From IMG/VR virus record IMGVR_UViG_3300031857_000303, positions 1 through 49,805 of that record: a DNA stretch of 49,805 bases; one strand, given 5' to 3'. This stretch comes from a virus. The position numbers and the translations under genes were made by a program. The notes beneath the pieces were generated by a model. That model was not told where the DNA came from. It made no database searches and was given only the letters and a program-made list of their open reading frames with translations. Below, in pieces: positions 6,714 to 46,097 of the stretch. Each line of letters opens with the position of its first letter. Positions within the stretch are counted from its first letter, which is position 1.

Positions 6714-7003
6714 GACTTTTGATTTATCCCGCGCAAATTTTGGATAAAAATTCCAAGCTGCTGATGGGCATATTCGAGTTCTGAAAGCACGCTTTCGCCG
6801 CTATAATCGCCAGACATTTCGGCACGACTCATTGCTGCGGCGATTGTCGCATCTACGCAATCTCCCATTGCTTGAAATCCTGCGCCGTTTTCAGAAATTG
6901 CCTGCTTGTGGCGATGGATTTGATCGGTTAGAAAAACCTTGTTGCCATCCATTCCAACAAAAAGACAGCCTTCAAGATTAAATTGATCGGTTAGTTTGTT
7001 CAT
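6710..7003 (-). CDS. hypothetical protein, 97 aa
   Basis: Not recognised. N-terminal beta region (CLFVGMDGNKVFL), then helices with DATIAAAMSRAEMSGDYSG; ends hydrophobic/basic. Own promoter. Confidence 0.8.
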   Translation of the reverse strand: MNKLTDQFNLEGCLFVGMDGNKVFLTDQIHRHKQAISENGAGFQAMGDCVDATIAAAMSRAEMSGDYSGESVLSELEYAHQQLGIFIQNLRGINQKS

Positions 7004-7009
7004 ACTCTG

Positions 7010-7038
7010 ATTATATCCCTTTATTTAAGCGGGCGCAA
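7010..7038 (-). promoter_or_regulatory. promoter of gene 6710..7003
   Basis: TTGCGC, 17-bp spacer, TATAAT, 6 nt to ATG. Confidence 0.85.
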
Positions 7039-7039
7039 G

Positions 7040-7294
7040 CTATTTTTGGCCGTGCTGATTCTTTTTTATCGCTGGGAATTTACTTTTTATCTGTTTTCCA
7101 AGCGTAAAGTAAAACCAATTTGTTGAACAGTCGCCCGATTTCTGTTTTTCTTTTGCTCTTGACAGGTAATAATCGTCGTTTGGCTTAGCGCCGTTTTCGC
7201 ACAACAGAATTATTTCTGATGGTGTCAACCATCCAGCCCATACGTCACGATGAACCTGTTTGCATTTTTTAATGGCACGGAGAAGCTTTTCCAT
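7040..7294 (-). CDS. hypothetical protein, 84 aa
   Basis: Basic, Lys-rich, three Cys. Segment WAGWLTPSEIILLCENGAKPNDDYY could be a helix-turn unit. Unknown. Confidence 0.8.
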   Translation of the reverse strand: MEKLLRAIKKCKQVHRDVWAGWLTPSEIILLCENGAKPNDDYYLSRAKEKQKSGDCSTNWFYFTLGKQIKSKFPAIKKNQHGQK

Positions 7295-7299
7295 ACTGA

Positions 7300-7328
7300 A
7301 TTATATTCCGCATTTTGAGTAAATGCAA
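7300..7328 (-). promoter_or_regulatory. promoter of gene 7040..7294
   Basis: TTGCAT, 17-bp spacer, TATAAT, 5 nt to ATG. Confidence 0.85.
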
Positions 7329-7341
7329 GTTAATTCTCCCC

Positions 7342-7611
7342 TTAAACTTGCACAAATTCAAACAACGACGCAACAAATTCGGCCAAAATTGCCGAATCTT
7401 TTTGGCGGCGAATTCGCAAGTTTCCAGTGTTTCGCGGCCCCAAGTGCTCATTGCACCCGCCTTTGCGGCATGATTCCATGAACTTTTGGCGGTAAACAAG
7501 GAGATTGTCTTTTGACGGTTTGCCATATTCTTTTCGCCATTCTCCGAAACAATGCCAGCCGTAGCCAACTTTTTCTTCAACGATTAGGGGGATGGTTTTG
7601 GATTTGCCCAT
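7342..7611 (-). CDS. hypothetical protein, 89 aa
   Basis: Contains ESCRKGGCNEHLGPRNTGNLRIRRQ, a basic Cys/His-containing region. An overlapping frame from 7580 lacks a promoter and is treated as a shadow. Unknown. Confidence 0.8.
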   Translation of the reverse strand: MGKSKTIPLIVEEKVGYGWHCFGEWRKEYGKPSKDNLLVYRQKFMESCRKGGCNEHLGPRNTGNLRIRRQKDSAILAEFVASLFEFVQV

Positions 7612-7616
7612 GTTAA

Positions 7617-7645
7617 ATTATGAACCTGTTAATCTTTTCGGTCAA
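7617..7645 (-). promoter_or_regulatory. promoter of gene 7342..7611
   Basis: TTGACC, 17-bp spacer, CATAAT, 5 nt to ATG. Confidence 0.8.
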
Positions 7646-7659
7646 CCAATTTGTTTCTT

Positions 7660-7860
7660 TTATTCTTCAAAAGTGAAATCGGCCCATCCACTTTCCAGAA
7701 ACTTTCTGTGTTGCAATTCAAGCATTGAATCTCGGAGTTTTGGGCCGTAGCCAATATATAACCGCGTTTTCTCCAATTTGTCAAGACAATCTTCAAACGT
7801 TGATCCAAACGATTCTTCTTTGAAGATTTGGCCGTGATGGACAGTCATTGTGATTTTCAT
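7660..7860 (-). CDS. hypothetical protein, 66 aa
   Basis: MKITMTVHHGQIFKEESFGS, then a helix and an aromatic acidic end (GWADFTFEE). Unknown. Confidence 0.8.
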   Translation of the reverse strand: MKITMTVHHGQIFKEESFGSTFEDCLDKLEKTRLYIGYGPKLRDSMLELQHRKFLESGWADFTFEE

Positions 7861-7866
7861 GTCTGG

Positions 7867-7895
7867 AATATAACCAATAAATTACTCCACGTCAA
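7867..7895 (-). promoter_or_regulatory. promoter of gene 7660..7860
   Basis: TTGACG, 17-bp spacer, TATATT, 6 nt to ATG. Confidence 0.85.
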
Positions 7896-8055
7896 GCCTA
7901 ATTTCTTCTTCTTCTGTCGTTTTTAGTGTCAAGTGTGGATTGAATTTTTTCTCTCTTTTAAACCGCTCCATTAAAGAATCTAGGCAATCAGTAGAGAAGA
8001 ACTCTATCCATTTATTAAGCCCTGCTCCCCAATAGTAAAGATGGTATTTGTTCAT
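7882..8055 (-). CDS. hypothetical protein, 57 aa
   Basis: Begins MNKYHLYYWGAGLNKW; ends with an acidic run (TTEEEEIRLDVE). Its last codons hold the -35 of the next gene. Unknown. Confidence 0.75.
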   Translation of the reverse strand: MNKYHLYYWGAGLNKWIEFFSTDCLDSLMERFKREKKFNPHLTLKTTEEEEIRLDVE

Positions 8056-8060
8056 AGGAG

Positions 8061-8089
8061 AATATAATCGGTTATTCCTTTCGGCGCAA
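8061..8089 (-). promoter_or_regulatory. promoter of gene 7882..8055
   Basis: TTGCGC, 17-bp spacer, TATATT, 5 nt to ATG. Confidence 0.8.
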
Positions 8090-8308: not shown

Positions 8309-8472
8309 GGATTTTCAACCGCTTTTACAAAGAAATCAATCCCTGCCTTTTGGCCCGTCGTTCTTGTCAAGTAATTTTCTAACGCCTCAATGACTCCAAA
8401 TCTTGAAATCTTGGTCAAATCCTCGTCTTGAAGGATTGTTATGACAAATTGTTTTGGTTCAAGGTTTTTCAT
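8305..8472 (-). CDS. hypothetical protein, 55 aa
   Basis: The frame is open to 8565 but that extension runs through the promoter and into the tRNA-like element, so the start is 8472 (MKNLEPKQFVITILQDEDL). Small alpha/beta protein, unknown. Confidence 0.75.
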   Translation of the reverse strand: MKNLEPKQFVITILQDEDLTKISRFGVIEALENYLTRTTGQKAGIDFFVKAVENP

Positions 8473-20189: not shown

Positions 20190-20217
20190 AATATAACCAC
20201 TCACTTGCCCTTGTCCA
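20190..20217 (-). promoter_or_regulatory. promoter of gene 19816..20184
   Basis: TGGACA, 16-bp spacer, TATATT, 5 nt to ATG. Confidence 0.65.
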
Positions 20218-20644
20218 GTCGTTTATACGCCAATATTTTGCGGCGATTTGCATCGTGCCATTCAACGGGTTCGCCAGTCAAGCTATTGTTGTAAAATGCG
20301 TCGAAGATTTGGCCGTTTTTGATTACTTGCAAGTGTTCTGTTGTGAAAACGAGGTAAGTTCCGCGTTTGAACTTCTGGAAATTCTTGAGAACAGGCCGCT
20401 TTTTGGGCCAAACGGTTTTTCTCTTCTTACCAAAACCTTTTGTCAAGGCGAGAGCTTCATCCCATGTCATATACTTACGCCAATAATAGATTTTACGAGC
20501 GGGCCAGCCCTTTTTCTCGCGCAATTTTTTGAGTCGGCGCTGAACCGTATAAACTGGCTCGCCCGTGATAAGGGAAACCGCCACTGTTCCGCAAGAAATG
20601 TCGCACTCGGGATAGTCGGCGCGATTAAAGGTTTTAAGTTTCAT
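20201..20644 (-). CDS. putative C39-like cysteine-peptidase-fold protein, 147 aa
   Basis: A Cys near the N-terminus (CDISCGTVAVSLITGEPV) and a later RGTYLVFTTEHLQVIKNGQI with a His before a beta strand and D/N residues give the Cys-His order of the C39/papain fold. Similar phage proteins (CGTVA...TG...GTYLV...H...V-x-x-G-x-x-x-D) are common. Catalysis is unproven. Start at 20644 forms ATGA with the upstream stop; a longer frame has no support. Confidence 0.7.
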   Translation of the reverse strand: MKLKTFNRADYPECDISCGTVAVSLITGEPVYTVQRRLKKLREKKGWPARKIYYWRKYMTWDEALALTKGFGKKRKTVWPKKRPVLKNFQKFKRGTYLVFTTEHLQVIKNGQIFDAFYNNSLTGEPVEWHDANRRKILAYKRLDKGK

Positions 20645-20928
20645 AGACCTTGGCCGTTCGCCCATGAAGCGGGAATATCTTCTCGGGGAATTCCGTTGTC
20701 GAGTAAATGCGCCGCTAACCAATGACGCATAAATGCATAAAGATATTCTCGACCTTTGTTTCCAAGAATTTTGCGGCGAAAGCTTTTGTTTTTCTCGAAA
20801 CAATTTTCAGCGCGAGTGAGAATATAACTTTCCGCCGAATCATTATCGAAAGTGGCGAAAGTTCGCGCTTCACTAATAACAATGTCGGCAACAATACAAG
20901 GAACAATGGGCGTCTCGTCTGAAATCAT
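20641..20928 (-). CDS. hypothetical protein, 95 aa
   Basis: Helical; ends PREDIPASWANGQGL, overlapping the next start. Weak promoter: TTGACT (20957-20962), 17-bp spacer, AAAGTT. It directly follows the U-tract of the structured RNA. Unknown. Confidence 0.75.
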   Translation of the reverse strand: MISDETPIVPCIVADIVISEARTFATFDNDSAESYILTRAENCFEKNKSFRRKILGNKGREYLYAFMRHWLAAHLLDNGIPREDIPASWANGQGL

Positions 20929-20963
20929 AAGACAACTTTGGCCGAAAAAGAAGAAAAGTCAAG

Positions 20964-21556
20964 AAAAAAAATTGCCTTGGCTAGACTGAGGCTGACGCAT
21001 TACTAAAGCGTTCCTCATCAGCTTTCGTGTTTAGGAATGGCCTCATACACGCAAGGCAAAATTGTAGAAACCAGAATCCAGCGGGCAGGCCCATTACTTC
21101 CTGCCTTGAGCTATTTACCAGCTACTTGCTACGCGCAGCTTTGGCTGGCTAAATGGACGCCTCGCAACTCAAAATGGTTGCTCACGACCCAAGTGAACCA
21201 CTGTATCACCGCTGGATTCTGGTTTCAGAAAATTAGTGTGAATTTTTTTGGTGGCGTTAAGCCTGCCATCGAATCTTTCCACGGATTAGGTAACTCACAA
21301 ACTATTACTAACCAGTCTCAAAAAGACTTGGATGACTATTGCTAGTTTTTATACTTTCGGCATTTTCAAGGCGTAACTCTCAATAAGCCTACATCTGTTA
21401 TAAAAACAACACCAATACTTGAACAGATACGATTTCTTGGGTTGGGAGCTTAAGAACGGCAGGGTTTCCACCTGCATAACGTGTCAAGTTAGATTTTGGG
21501 TTCGACTTGCCCTCTCCTTTCGGATTCGTTCTCGGGCCAGATTTTAGGTCTGGCAA
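20964..21556 (-). ncRNA. large structured RNA (~590 nt), GOLLD/ROOL-like candidate
   Basis: No plausible minus-strand ORF, but dense complementarity. Plus-strand coordinates of helices: 21067-21084 with 21209-21226 (18 bp, perfect); inside it 21085-21089/21100-21104, 21113-21122/21144-21154, 21164-21168/21177-21181. 3' part: 20972-20979/21052-21059, 20991-20994/21019-21022, 20995-20998/21008-21011; 20987-20992/21040-21045 crosses 21026-21030/21047-21051, a pseudoknot. 5' part: 21393-21399/21422-21428, 21459-21463/21471-21475, 21536-21541/21549-21554, 21314-21318/21324-21328. A run of eight U after the 20972/21059 helix marks a minus-strand 3' end. Size, phage context and nearby tRNAs fit the GOLLD/ROOL kind of giant RNA; class identity is not established. 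Confidence 0.8.
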
Positions 21557-21561
21557 TTTAC

Positions 21562-21807
21562 TCAAGCATACAACTTGTGATTCGTATATGCCGCCTTAAA
21601 CTTACGATAGTTCTTATATCCTGTCAAGCCTTTTTCGCTCATTACACGGAAAATGGCGTTAATGGAAACCTTTTGGCGGCGCATTGTTGAGACTGTTTCG
21701 GCCTCAGATTCAGCCATGATTTCGCGTGGGCGTCCTTTGTTAGACCCCCTGCCCTTCGAGAGAATTCGGGCGCGAGCGATTAGTGTGTTGATTGTGGTTT
21801 TGTCCAT
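21562..21807 (-). CDS. hypothetical helix-turn-helix-like protein, 81 aa
   Basis: Basic; the segment TVSTMRRQKVSINAIFRVMSE reads like a helix-turn-helix, followed by a KNYRKFKAAYT helix. A DNA-binding role is inferred. The ATG follows an A/C-rich, G-free leader of about 20 nt with no Shine-Dalgarno. It ends just before the structured RNA. Confidence 0.75.
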   Translation of the reverse strand: MDKTTINTLIARARILSKGRGSNKGRPREIMAESEAETVSTMRRQKVSINAIFRVMSEKGLTGYKNYRKFKAAYTNHKLYA

Positions 21808-25337: not shown

Positions 25338-25366
25338 AAAAAAACCCTCACCTTTTCGGGCGAGGG
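25338..25366 (-). terminator. strong intrinsic terminator of the holin operon
   Basis: CCCTCGCC and GGTGAGGG make an 8-bp stem (one G-U) with a CGAAAA loop, followed directly by T7. It is the clearest terminator in the window and lies 26 nt after the holin-like gene. Confidence 0.9.
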
Positions 25367-25391
25367 CTAATTGGTTAGGGTTAAAGGGCGA

Positions 25392-25571
25392 TTACTTTTT
25401 CTTGAAATTCAGGGCCAAATAGTTGACTACTTTCGCAATCTTAGCAACCCATCCATTATCCTTGTCAGAGGGCGTAAGGTTGGCTACGAGAGAGGCTACG
25501 GTAACAACGCCTGTAACAATGGCAATAAGAGTTTCTGAATTTTCAGTTAGGAATTTGATTGTGTCGTTCAT
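25392..25571 (-). CDS. holin-like membrane protein, 59 aa
   Basis: One hydrophobic segment (LIAIVTGVVTVASLVANL, residues 15-32) after a polar N-terminus; then a short polar linker, TPSDKDNGWVAKIAKVVNYL and a C-terminal KKK. This matches small phage holins I recall ending in 'ANLTP-x-x-KDD...W'. Holins permeabilise the inner membrane at lysis. Last gene of a 12-gene operon. Purine-rich AGGGGAG lies 15-20 nt upstream, and TGTAATATAGGG precedes it. Confidence 0.75.
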   Translation of the reverse strand: MNDTIKFLTENSETLIAIVTGVVTVASLVANLTPSDKDNGWVAKIAKVVNYLALNFKKK

Positions 25572-29080: not shown

Positions 29081-29109
29081 ATTATAGGTTAGGAGTTAGG
29101 GGTTGTCAA
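29081..29109 (-). promoter_or_regulatory. promoter of gene 28826..29074
   Basis: TTGACA, 17-bp spacer, TATAAT, CTACCC, ATG: the same proximal cassette as at 3130 and 4173. Confidence 0.9.
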
Positions 29110-40466: not shown

Positions 40467-40953
40467 TCCAATAATCTACAATCTCTTTAATCTGTTCAAT
40501 CTCTTCTATTGGAGAGAATGGTAAATTCTTTCGTGATTCAAGAAGCTGAGAGATTTTCTCTAAATGGCCGAGTTCGCAGTCTTTCAAGAGGACATAGGTT
40601 GTCAAACTTTTGCCGTCTGGGCCATTTGTTCCCCAAATTGCATTTTCAGCCCGCCATTCAAAGCTTTCCGTGTCTGGAATTTCTTCGGGGGATAGAAGGC
40701 GAACGTCTTCTAGGTTCCAAAGGCCATATTTTCGTGGTTTGTTGAGATTCCAGTCGTTATAGAGTTCGGCAAATGTCTGAGGAACCATAATCCAAATAGG
40801 TTTGCCCCAGCATTGCCCATACCAGCCATGACCATCTAAATCTTGACCGCCATCCATAATAATACGATCCTCCCCCTCTCCTATGGTTCTGTAATCGTGA
40901 CGAGCTACCGAAGCAACTACCTGTTTATTATTGTGAAATCCTAAAAGTTTCAT
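40450..40953 (-). CDS. hypothetical protein, 167 aa
   Basis: Begins MKLLGFHNNKQVVASVARHD; Trp/Gly-rich middle (GHGWYGQCWGKPIWIMVPQT), acidic helical end. The first 23 residues are similar to the orphan peptide 41625..41696. It lacks its own promoter and sits behind the GIY-YIG gene by ATGA overlap. Unknown. Confidence 0.8.
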   Translation of the reverse strand: MKLLGFHNNKQVVASVARHDYRTIGEGEDRIIMDGGQDLDGHGWYGQCWGKPIWIMVPQTFAELYNDWNLNKPRKYGLWNLEDVRLLSPEEIPDTESFEWRAENAIWGTNGPDGKSLTTYVLLKDCELGHLEKISQLLESRKNLPFSPIEEIEQIKEIVDYWIKQKS

Positions 40954-41576
40954 ATTCTTTTCTTTCCTCGCATTTTCTTTTTATAGGGCGGTAATGGGGT
41001 AGGAGAATAAGACCACATAAAACCACCCATTGATTGTTTCTTACCTCGGCAACATGCTGATATATTATCTTTGTGAATACCAGTGAAATTAGCAGCCTTC
41101 GTTACGGAATCGAAATTCCTAATAAGGGTTCCGCTTAGATCAAACATATAAACATTTTTTTTATTTGCTAAATAAATTCCTATTTTTGCCTCGGGAGACA
41201 TTTTTAACCCCAACTTTGACTTTCTAATTTTTTCTCTAGACTCTTCGGAATGTTTAAAGCCCTGGTTAGATTCGGCGGTTTTGCTCGCATTATATCCAAA
41301 GTCTTTCTCATAGCTTTTGTAGAGGTCTAAAAAATACTGTTCTCTTTCGACCAAAACAGAAACGTCGCAAAACTCAATAACTAAAAATTCAAATGAATTA
41401 AGCCCGTATTTATTATATGCCCTTTGAAAGTATCTATTTGCGCCATGTTGTCTTTTTAAAGAACTTCTGTGGCTCTTCCATCTAAGCCTAATATTACTGG
41501 AGCTACCAATATAGATTTTTCCATTTATTTTATTCTTAATCCCATAAATACCGCTTCGATTTAAATTTTGGTGCAT
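40950..41576 (-). CDS. GIY-YIG homing endonuclease, 208 aa
   Basis: Catalytic module SGIYGIKNKINGKIYIGSSS (8-27) with later R and E residues (LRWKSHRSSL, FEFLVIEF), then NUMOD-type DNA-binding repeats: HSEESREKIRKSKLGLKMS and VTKAANFTGIHKDNISACCR, ending MGGFMWSY. AT-rich compared with neighbours. It is a free-standing mobile gene placed between the 23-codon orphan start and its homologous gene. Upstream TTGACA (41611-41616) with TGTAAT 19 bp away may be a promoter. Confidence 0.92.
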   Translation of the reverse strand: MHQNLNRSGIYGIKNKINGKIYIGSSSNIRLRWKSHRSSLKRQHGANRYFQRAYNKYGLNSFEFLVIEFCDVSVLVEREQYFLDLYKSYEKDFGYNASKTAESNQGFKHSEESREKIRKSKLGLKMSPEAKIGIYLANKKNVYMFDLSGTLIRNFDSVTKAANFTGIHKDNISACCRGKKQSMGGFMWSYSPTPLPPYKKKMRGKKRI

Positions 41577-41624
41577 CAATAAATTATTACACCAAAACTC
41601 TTTTGAAGTCTGTCAAATTATAAT

Positions 41625-41696
41625 TTAATTTATATAATCATAATGGGCGACAGATGTTAGGATTTTTTTATTGTTAGTTACGCCGAGCAGTTTCAT
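41625..41696 (-). pseudogene. orphan 23-codon gene start similar to gene 40450..40953
   Basis: MKLLGVTNNKKILTSVAHYD and three more residues, then TAA. It matches the N-terminus of 40450..40953 (MKLLG-x-x-NNK...SVA-x-x-DY) and has a full leaderless promoter. Probably the remnant of a tandem copy or of the original gene start separated by the homing endonuclease. Confidence 0.6.
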
Positions 41697-41701
41697 GTTT
41701 T

Positions 41702-41730
41702 AATTTGTCCTATTTTTAGCGATTTGTCAA
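41702..41730 (-). promoter_or_regulatory. promoter of the orphan start 41696
   Basis: TTGACA, 17-bp spacer, CAAATT, 5 nt to ATG. Confidence 0.7.
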
Positions 41731-45977: not shown

Positions 45978-46097
45978 TGGTCGCCCGCAGGGATTTGAAC
46001 CCCTTCTCTCCAGCCATAGGAGCGCTTTAACGATTGCTAGATCGTCACATTTTCGTCTCTAGCAAGACTACTTTGTGCCTAGTTAAGCTATTGGGCG
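45978..46097 (-). tRNA. expanded tRNA-like element (~120 nt), candidate Ser-GCT
   Basis: tRNA-type ends: 5' CGCCC pairs with GGGCG before an encoded ACCA, a T-arm GGGG-TTCAAAT-CCCT and a D-arm GCTT/AAGT with GG in the loop. A hairpin AGTCT-TGCTAG-AGAC could carry anticodon GCT with a 6-nt loop. Nearly 50 nt follow before the T-arm, with hairpins ACGAT-CTAGCA-ATCGT and CTCC-TATGGCT-GGAG; TTGCTAGA and TCTAGCAA can pair instead. Too long for a normal tRNA; may be degenerate or carry an insertion. Confidence 0.5.

Follow-up and report, generated by a model that had tools for sequence, protein, structure and literature searches.

Within a 49,805-nt (49.8 kb) fragment of an uncultivated phage (IMG/VR record IMGVR_UViG_3300031857_000303), hereafter called the window, nearly all genes are carried by the minus strand. 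Among these are genes for a RuvB/clamp-loader-like ATPase, two RNA ligases and UvdE, along with many small genes of unknown function. A gap of 633 nt (20929-21561) lies between the stop of gene 21562-21807 and the start of gene 20641-20928, and this gap is the subject of the present analysis.

Relatives of this phage are few. Searches of IMG/VR with the clamp loader and its neighbouring genes returned only two contigs, one of them near-identical to the window (99.98% over the shared part, with zero variation within the noncoding stretch), and no copy of the clamp loader was found in GTDB. Only one relative is informative, a contig of 165 kb (L004/G002) in which the genes stand in the same order and are approximately 65-92% identical in DNA. 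Its terminase shares 22-24% identity with those of isolated phages, a distant match, and that collection thus contains no close cultured relative of the lineage. The features of the locus, all given for the minus strand, are as follows.

20201-20644, minus: phrog_3754-like gene, conserved in L004 (79%), which marks the syntenic locus.
20641-20928, minus: downstream gene of 95 aa, not found at the corresponding place in L004.
20934-20962, minus: TTGACT-17-AAAGTT, right after the U8 tract and before the next gene, spaced like the leaderless promoters of this phage; its -10 element is poor and it is unscored in the matrix scan.
20964-20971, minus: U8 tract, a likely terminator tail, directly after an 8-bp helix.
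20964-21561, minus: noncoding stretch and proposed RNA, with its 3' end at U8; no coding signal, stop-rich frames.
20972-21059, minus: domain 3 (the 3' domain), with UUGCCUUG/CAAGGCAA as its closing helix; it may contain pseudoknots (helix search, folding z).
21067-21226, minus: domain 2, an 18-bp perfect helix (21209-21226 with 21067-21084) that closes a 124-nt multi-hairpin loop (inverted-repeat and folding scans).
21552-21559, minus: 5' end AAATTGCC, complementary to 3' end GGCAATTT (20969-20976); a possible end-closing helix that would compete with domain 3.
21562-21807, minus: upstream gene of 81 aa, conserved in L004 (63% at the protein level).
21599-21627, minus: promoter-like TTGACA-17-TAAGTT (score 12.5) with a predicted start near 21592; it sits within the last part of the upstream gene and overlaps coding sequence.

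An initial annotation, made by reading the letters of the window, had proposed that the region holds no plausible minus-strand gene, and this is borne out for the whole of 20929-21561. Specifically, each minus-strand frame of 20964-21556 carries 10-13 stops, and the longest plus-strand open reading frame (21037-21345, 102 aa) scores 0.08 bits per codon versus 0.13-0.44 for genes. A PHROG search of the open reading frames tested from the stretch gave zero matches, and we have dropped the reading of the stretch as a decayed gene because such a match is absent.

The most prominent structural feature is domain 2. No close inverted repeat in the window is longer than the one formed by its two arms, and the 18-bp perfect long-range helix described in the first-pass annotation is found at exactly the coordinates given there. 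Its length is also beyond chance, since 60 dinucleotide-shuffled versions of the whole window contain no inverted repeat longer than 14 bp. In a scan of the whole window in 175-nt pieces, the excess of folding energy ranks first of 3309 on both the minus strand (21056-21230) and the plus strand (21061-21235). When compared directly with shuffles, pieces of this size give z scores of -4.7 for 21057-21231 on the minus strand and -8.2 for 21059-21233 on the plus strand.

Two perfectly matched 18-bp arms spaced 124 nt apart, with a folding excess on both strands, might also be expected of an element that functions as DNA rather than as RNA, such as a small mobile MITE-like inverted repeat, or a DNA hairpin that serves in replication or packaging. 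However, no target-site duplication adjoins the arms, and the 18-mer is present in single copy in IMG/VR, recurring only in the near-identical contig. These observations led us to reject a MITE-like element despite its inverted repeat, and we judge an element acting as DNA to be highly improbable overall, the least credible of the explanations considered here.

The remainder of the stretch is structured unevenly. Domain 3 (piece 20964-21066) yields a z score of -3.4, whereas z on the minus strand is -0.11 for the 5' 330 nt (21227-21556), and -1.3 for the first 130 nt. For the 593 nt as a whole, the minus-strand z score is -2.4 and the plus-strand z score is -5.1. Because the 5' portion folds like its shuffles, the "at least a dozen helices" originally counted across the region shrink to two supported domains that together occupy the last ~265 nt. 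Crossing pairs near the 3' end had also been reported. The complementary stretches are indeed present, but matches of 5-6 bp are common by chance, and one of the segments involved, UGAGG, has a competing partner.

Domain 3 is closed by an 8-bp helix (21052-21059/20972-20979) enclosing a 72-nt multi-hairpin loop, and the U8 tract (20971-20964) follows directly, as had been noted at the outset. This tract is unusual for the window: no other T run on the coding strand is as long, and only one other coding-strand run in the 49.8 kb (25338-25344) reaches at least seven T residues. A strict scan for short-loop terminators reports none at U8 because the helix that precedes it encloses 72 nt. The second T run follows a textbook terminator hairpin, CCCTCGCCCGAAAAGGTGAGGG, whose counterpart in L004 has changed letters (CCCTCGCTCAAAAGGCGAGGG). 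This terminator (25338-25400, minus strand) sits after a small holin-like gene.

Could the entire stretch then be an untranslated end of the upstream operon, capped by an elaborate terminator? A structured 3' trailer of this kind would use domains 2 and 3 to block 3' exonucleases and to end transcription, and would yield no separate functional RNA. The closing helix and U8 at its end, with the TTGAC of a promoter-like start for the next gene right after, suit this proposal well, and the terminator at 25338-25400 is laid out alike, with TTGAC again coming next. That terminator, however, needs only about 30 nt, and a trailer of 600 nt is unlike the tight packing of this genome. We consider a trailer rather unlikely.

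Which strand would be transcribed is a matter of several lines of evidence. The folding excess is larger on the plus strand, so that folding energy by itself is no argument for the minus strand. Because the plus strand folds better relative to shuffles, the minus sense rests on the U8 tract, the direction of the coding strand, and a moderate promoter match. The last of these comes from a matrix built from the phage's own promoter-like sites. The same scan finds no site of that class on the plus strand of the noncoding region, and the L004 counterpart of the site at 21599-21627 scores only 7.0. We favour the minus strand as the transcribed sense, and do not regard it as proven.

More generally, promoter-like sites of the form TTGAC-N17-TATAAT occur throughout the window on the minus strand (for example at 29109, 4201, 3781, 3546, 3158 and 2211), mostly with an ATG 4-8 nt after them, which corresponds to leaderless-type starts. 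At a score of at least 12.4, the coding strand of the window has 36 such sites and the opposite strand has 0; in L004 the counts are 19 versus 1.

The corresponding locus of L004 retains the upstream gene, the phrog_3754-like gene and, between them, a U tract (U7) with a downstream TTTCGGCCAAA segment that is common to both phages. The sequence TTTCGGCCAAA, counted together with its one-mismatch variants, is strongly over-represented on both strands of the window and L004 (36 in the window versus 3.7 expected), perhaps as a result of codon usage. Between the upstream gene and the U tract, the contents of the two genomes differ. Directly before the U tract of L004 is a 98-nt tRNA (8329-8426; Rfam tRNA, 40.7 bits), with an enlarged anticodon/variable region, that is found by Rfam and missed by ARAGORN. 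A TnpB-like gene with IS605-like hairpin ends (6884-8074), as read from sequence and translation, is inserted in the syntenic noncoding interval. Also in this interval is an element of 133 nt that has a perfect 12-bp inverted repeat as its closing stem (z -3.7); the element ranks only 82nd of 5225 on its strand in a wider folding scan. No sequence similarity was detected between this interval and the candidate RNA of the window, and covariance models built for domains 2 and 3 from the single sequence of each gave zero matches in L004.

Given the tRNA directly before the matching U tract, this site carries an RNA gene in a relative, and the position of the tRNA fits a stable-RNA locus that is variable in content. 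Judging from two genomes, both phages appear to have RNA genes at this locus, with different RNAs in each. The same data could alternatively describe a variable insertion site at which unrelated pieces collect, namely a foreign or decayed segment and the 95-aa gene in the window, and a tRNA, an IS605-type TnpB element and another inverted-repeat element in L004, with no conserved RNA function. The lack of sequence similarity here, although the surrounding genes are ~65-92% identical in DNA, is what such a site should produce, as are the 95-aa gene that was not found at this place in L004 and the TnpB element inserted there. Yet a decayed insert is not expected to keep 18 of 18 pairs, as the intact domain 2 does, and both phages keep the U tract. 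An insertion site with no RNA function is, in our estimation, decidedly unlikely.

Two other regions of the window deserve mention. At 45981-46097 (minus strand) lies a tRNA-like RNA whose CCA end is encoded and whose D-loop carries an insert of ~54 nt (Rfam tRNA 14.3 bits, below the cut-off). It belongs to a 223-nt stretch that is 87% identical in L004 and in which some pairs are kept via G-U changes. This RNA may be an intron-bearing or otherwise odd tRNA. Separately, the open reading frame at 40950-41579 (minus strand) has a start that reads like a GIY-YIG endonuclease (GIYGIKNKINGKIYIGSS), with a hairpin ahead of it, and the piece 41531-41705 is one of those with the greatest folding excess on the minus strand.

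Searches for homologues of the candidate RNA recovered near-identical copies only. No relative emerged from blastn against phage and plasmid records, or from exact and gapped motif scans of IMG/VR with the 3' 21-mer, the 18-bp arm, and the 5' and 3' pseudoknots. Two hits of the 3' pseudoknot scan (L019 and L020) were set aside as chance matches that share no other similarity, and the 5' pseudoknot pattern found nothing in GTDB genomes. Likewise, no Rfam 15 family matched the noncoding stretch at the gathering cut-off, and at E<=10 the only hit was a spurious snoRNA (18.1 bits versus a gathering score of 40). The classes suggested by the first-pass annotation (GOLLD, ROOL, HEARO, OLE, raiA and RNase P) are accordingly all unmatched, as are group I and II introns, HDV-like ribozymes and other Rfam 15 models. 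At E<=10, the GOLLD model (RF02032, conserved 3' region) gave no match, and the ROOL model gave none in the window or L004; the ROOL model had no match in the control genomes either, which leaves its negative result without a positive control. A hammerhead ribozyme was considered on the basis of CUGAUGAG and rejected, because GAAA directly before it leaves no room for stems I and III. A tRNA or tmRNA was also rejected, as neither ARAGORN nor the Rfam tRNA model gave a hit there.

The last ~265 nt are truly structured, are probably closed by a terminator, and probably constitute a noncoding RNA. As the best explanation, held with confidence that is evenly divided, we propose that the stretch encodes an orphan, partly structured noncoding RNA of the phage, read from the minus strand and ending at a terminator. 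RNA polymerase would enter from gene 21562-21807, start near 21592, or both, then read approximately 590-630 nt of untranslated sequence and stop at U8 after domain 3. Domains 2 and 3 (20972-21226) could fold into a compact, structured unit and, during infection, may build up as a stable RNA, whereas the 5' 330 nt would be a weakly structured leader or decayed sequence. Transcription would restart for gene 20641-20928. What the sequences show directly is that a gene is absent, that the 18-bp helix and the unusual U8 are present, and that the relative keeps the U tract and the flanking genes; we infer the transcription, promoter, termination and stability of such an RNA, as well as any function it might have in trans.

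A more ambitious version of this proposal envisions a new class of large phage noncoding RNA. The transcript of ~590 nt would close on itself via AAAUUGCC/GGCAAUUU, with the closing helix of domain 3 as an alternative state, and would be stable and perhaps oligomeric in a lineage that has its own RNA ligases. In this complete form we find the proposal very doubtful. A giant new RNA class as such is possible and would be founded on one sequence. The giant, ornate phage RNA imagined at first thus survives as a noncoding, probably terminator-ended and partly structured stretch, but only its 3' ~265 nt fold better than shuffles, and the ROOL and GOLLD searches are negative.

ROOL, GOLLD and other large structured RNAs of phages are widespread and still await explanation. 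If the stretch encodes an independent RNA of this sort at a site that carries a tRNA in a relative, this would suggest that structured RNAs are recruited to such sites repeatedly. At present the stretch is a single-copy candidate, whose main use is as a seed for bigger metagenome searches.

Both established classes are phage-borne: ROOL RNAs are often located near tRNAs, and GOLLD RNAs are sometimes near tRNAs or contain them (PMC12286853). The ROOL model (RF03087) spans 574 nt, a length similar to that of the stretch in the window, but the 5' half of the latter is without significant structure. The stretch is also shorter than typical GOLLD RNAs, many of which exceed 800 nt. A long structured 3' UTR with an intrinsic terminator is likewise noncoding, follows a gene, and has a stem plus U8 at its end. 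The terminator of that type is a short hairpin, whereas in the window an 8-bp stem encloses a multi-hairpin loop.
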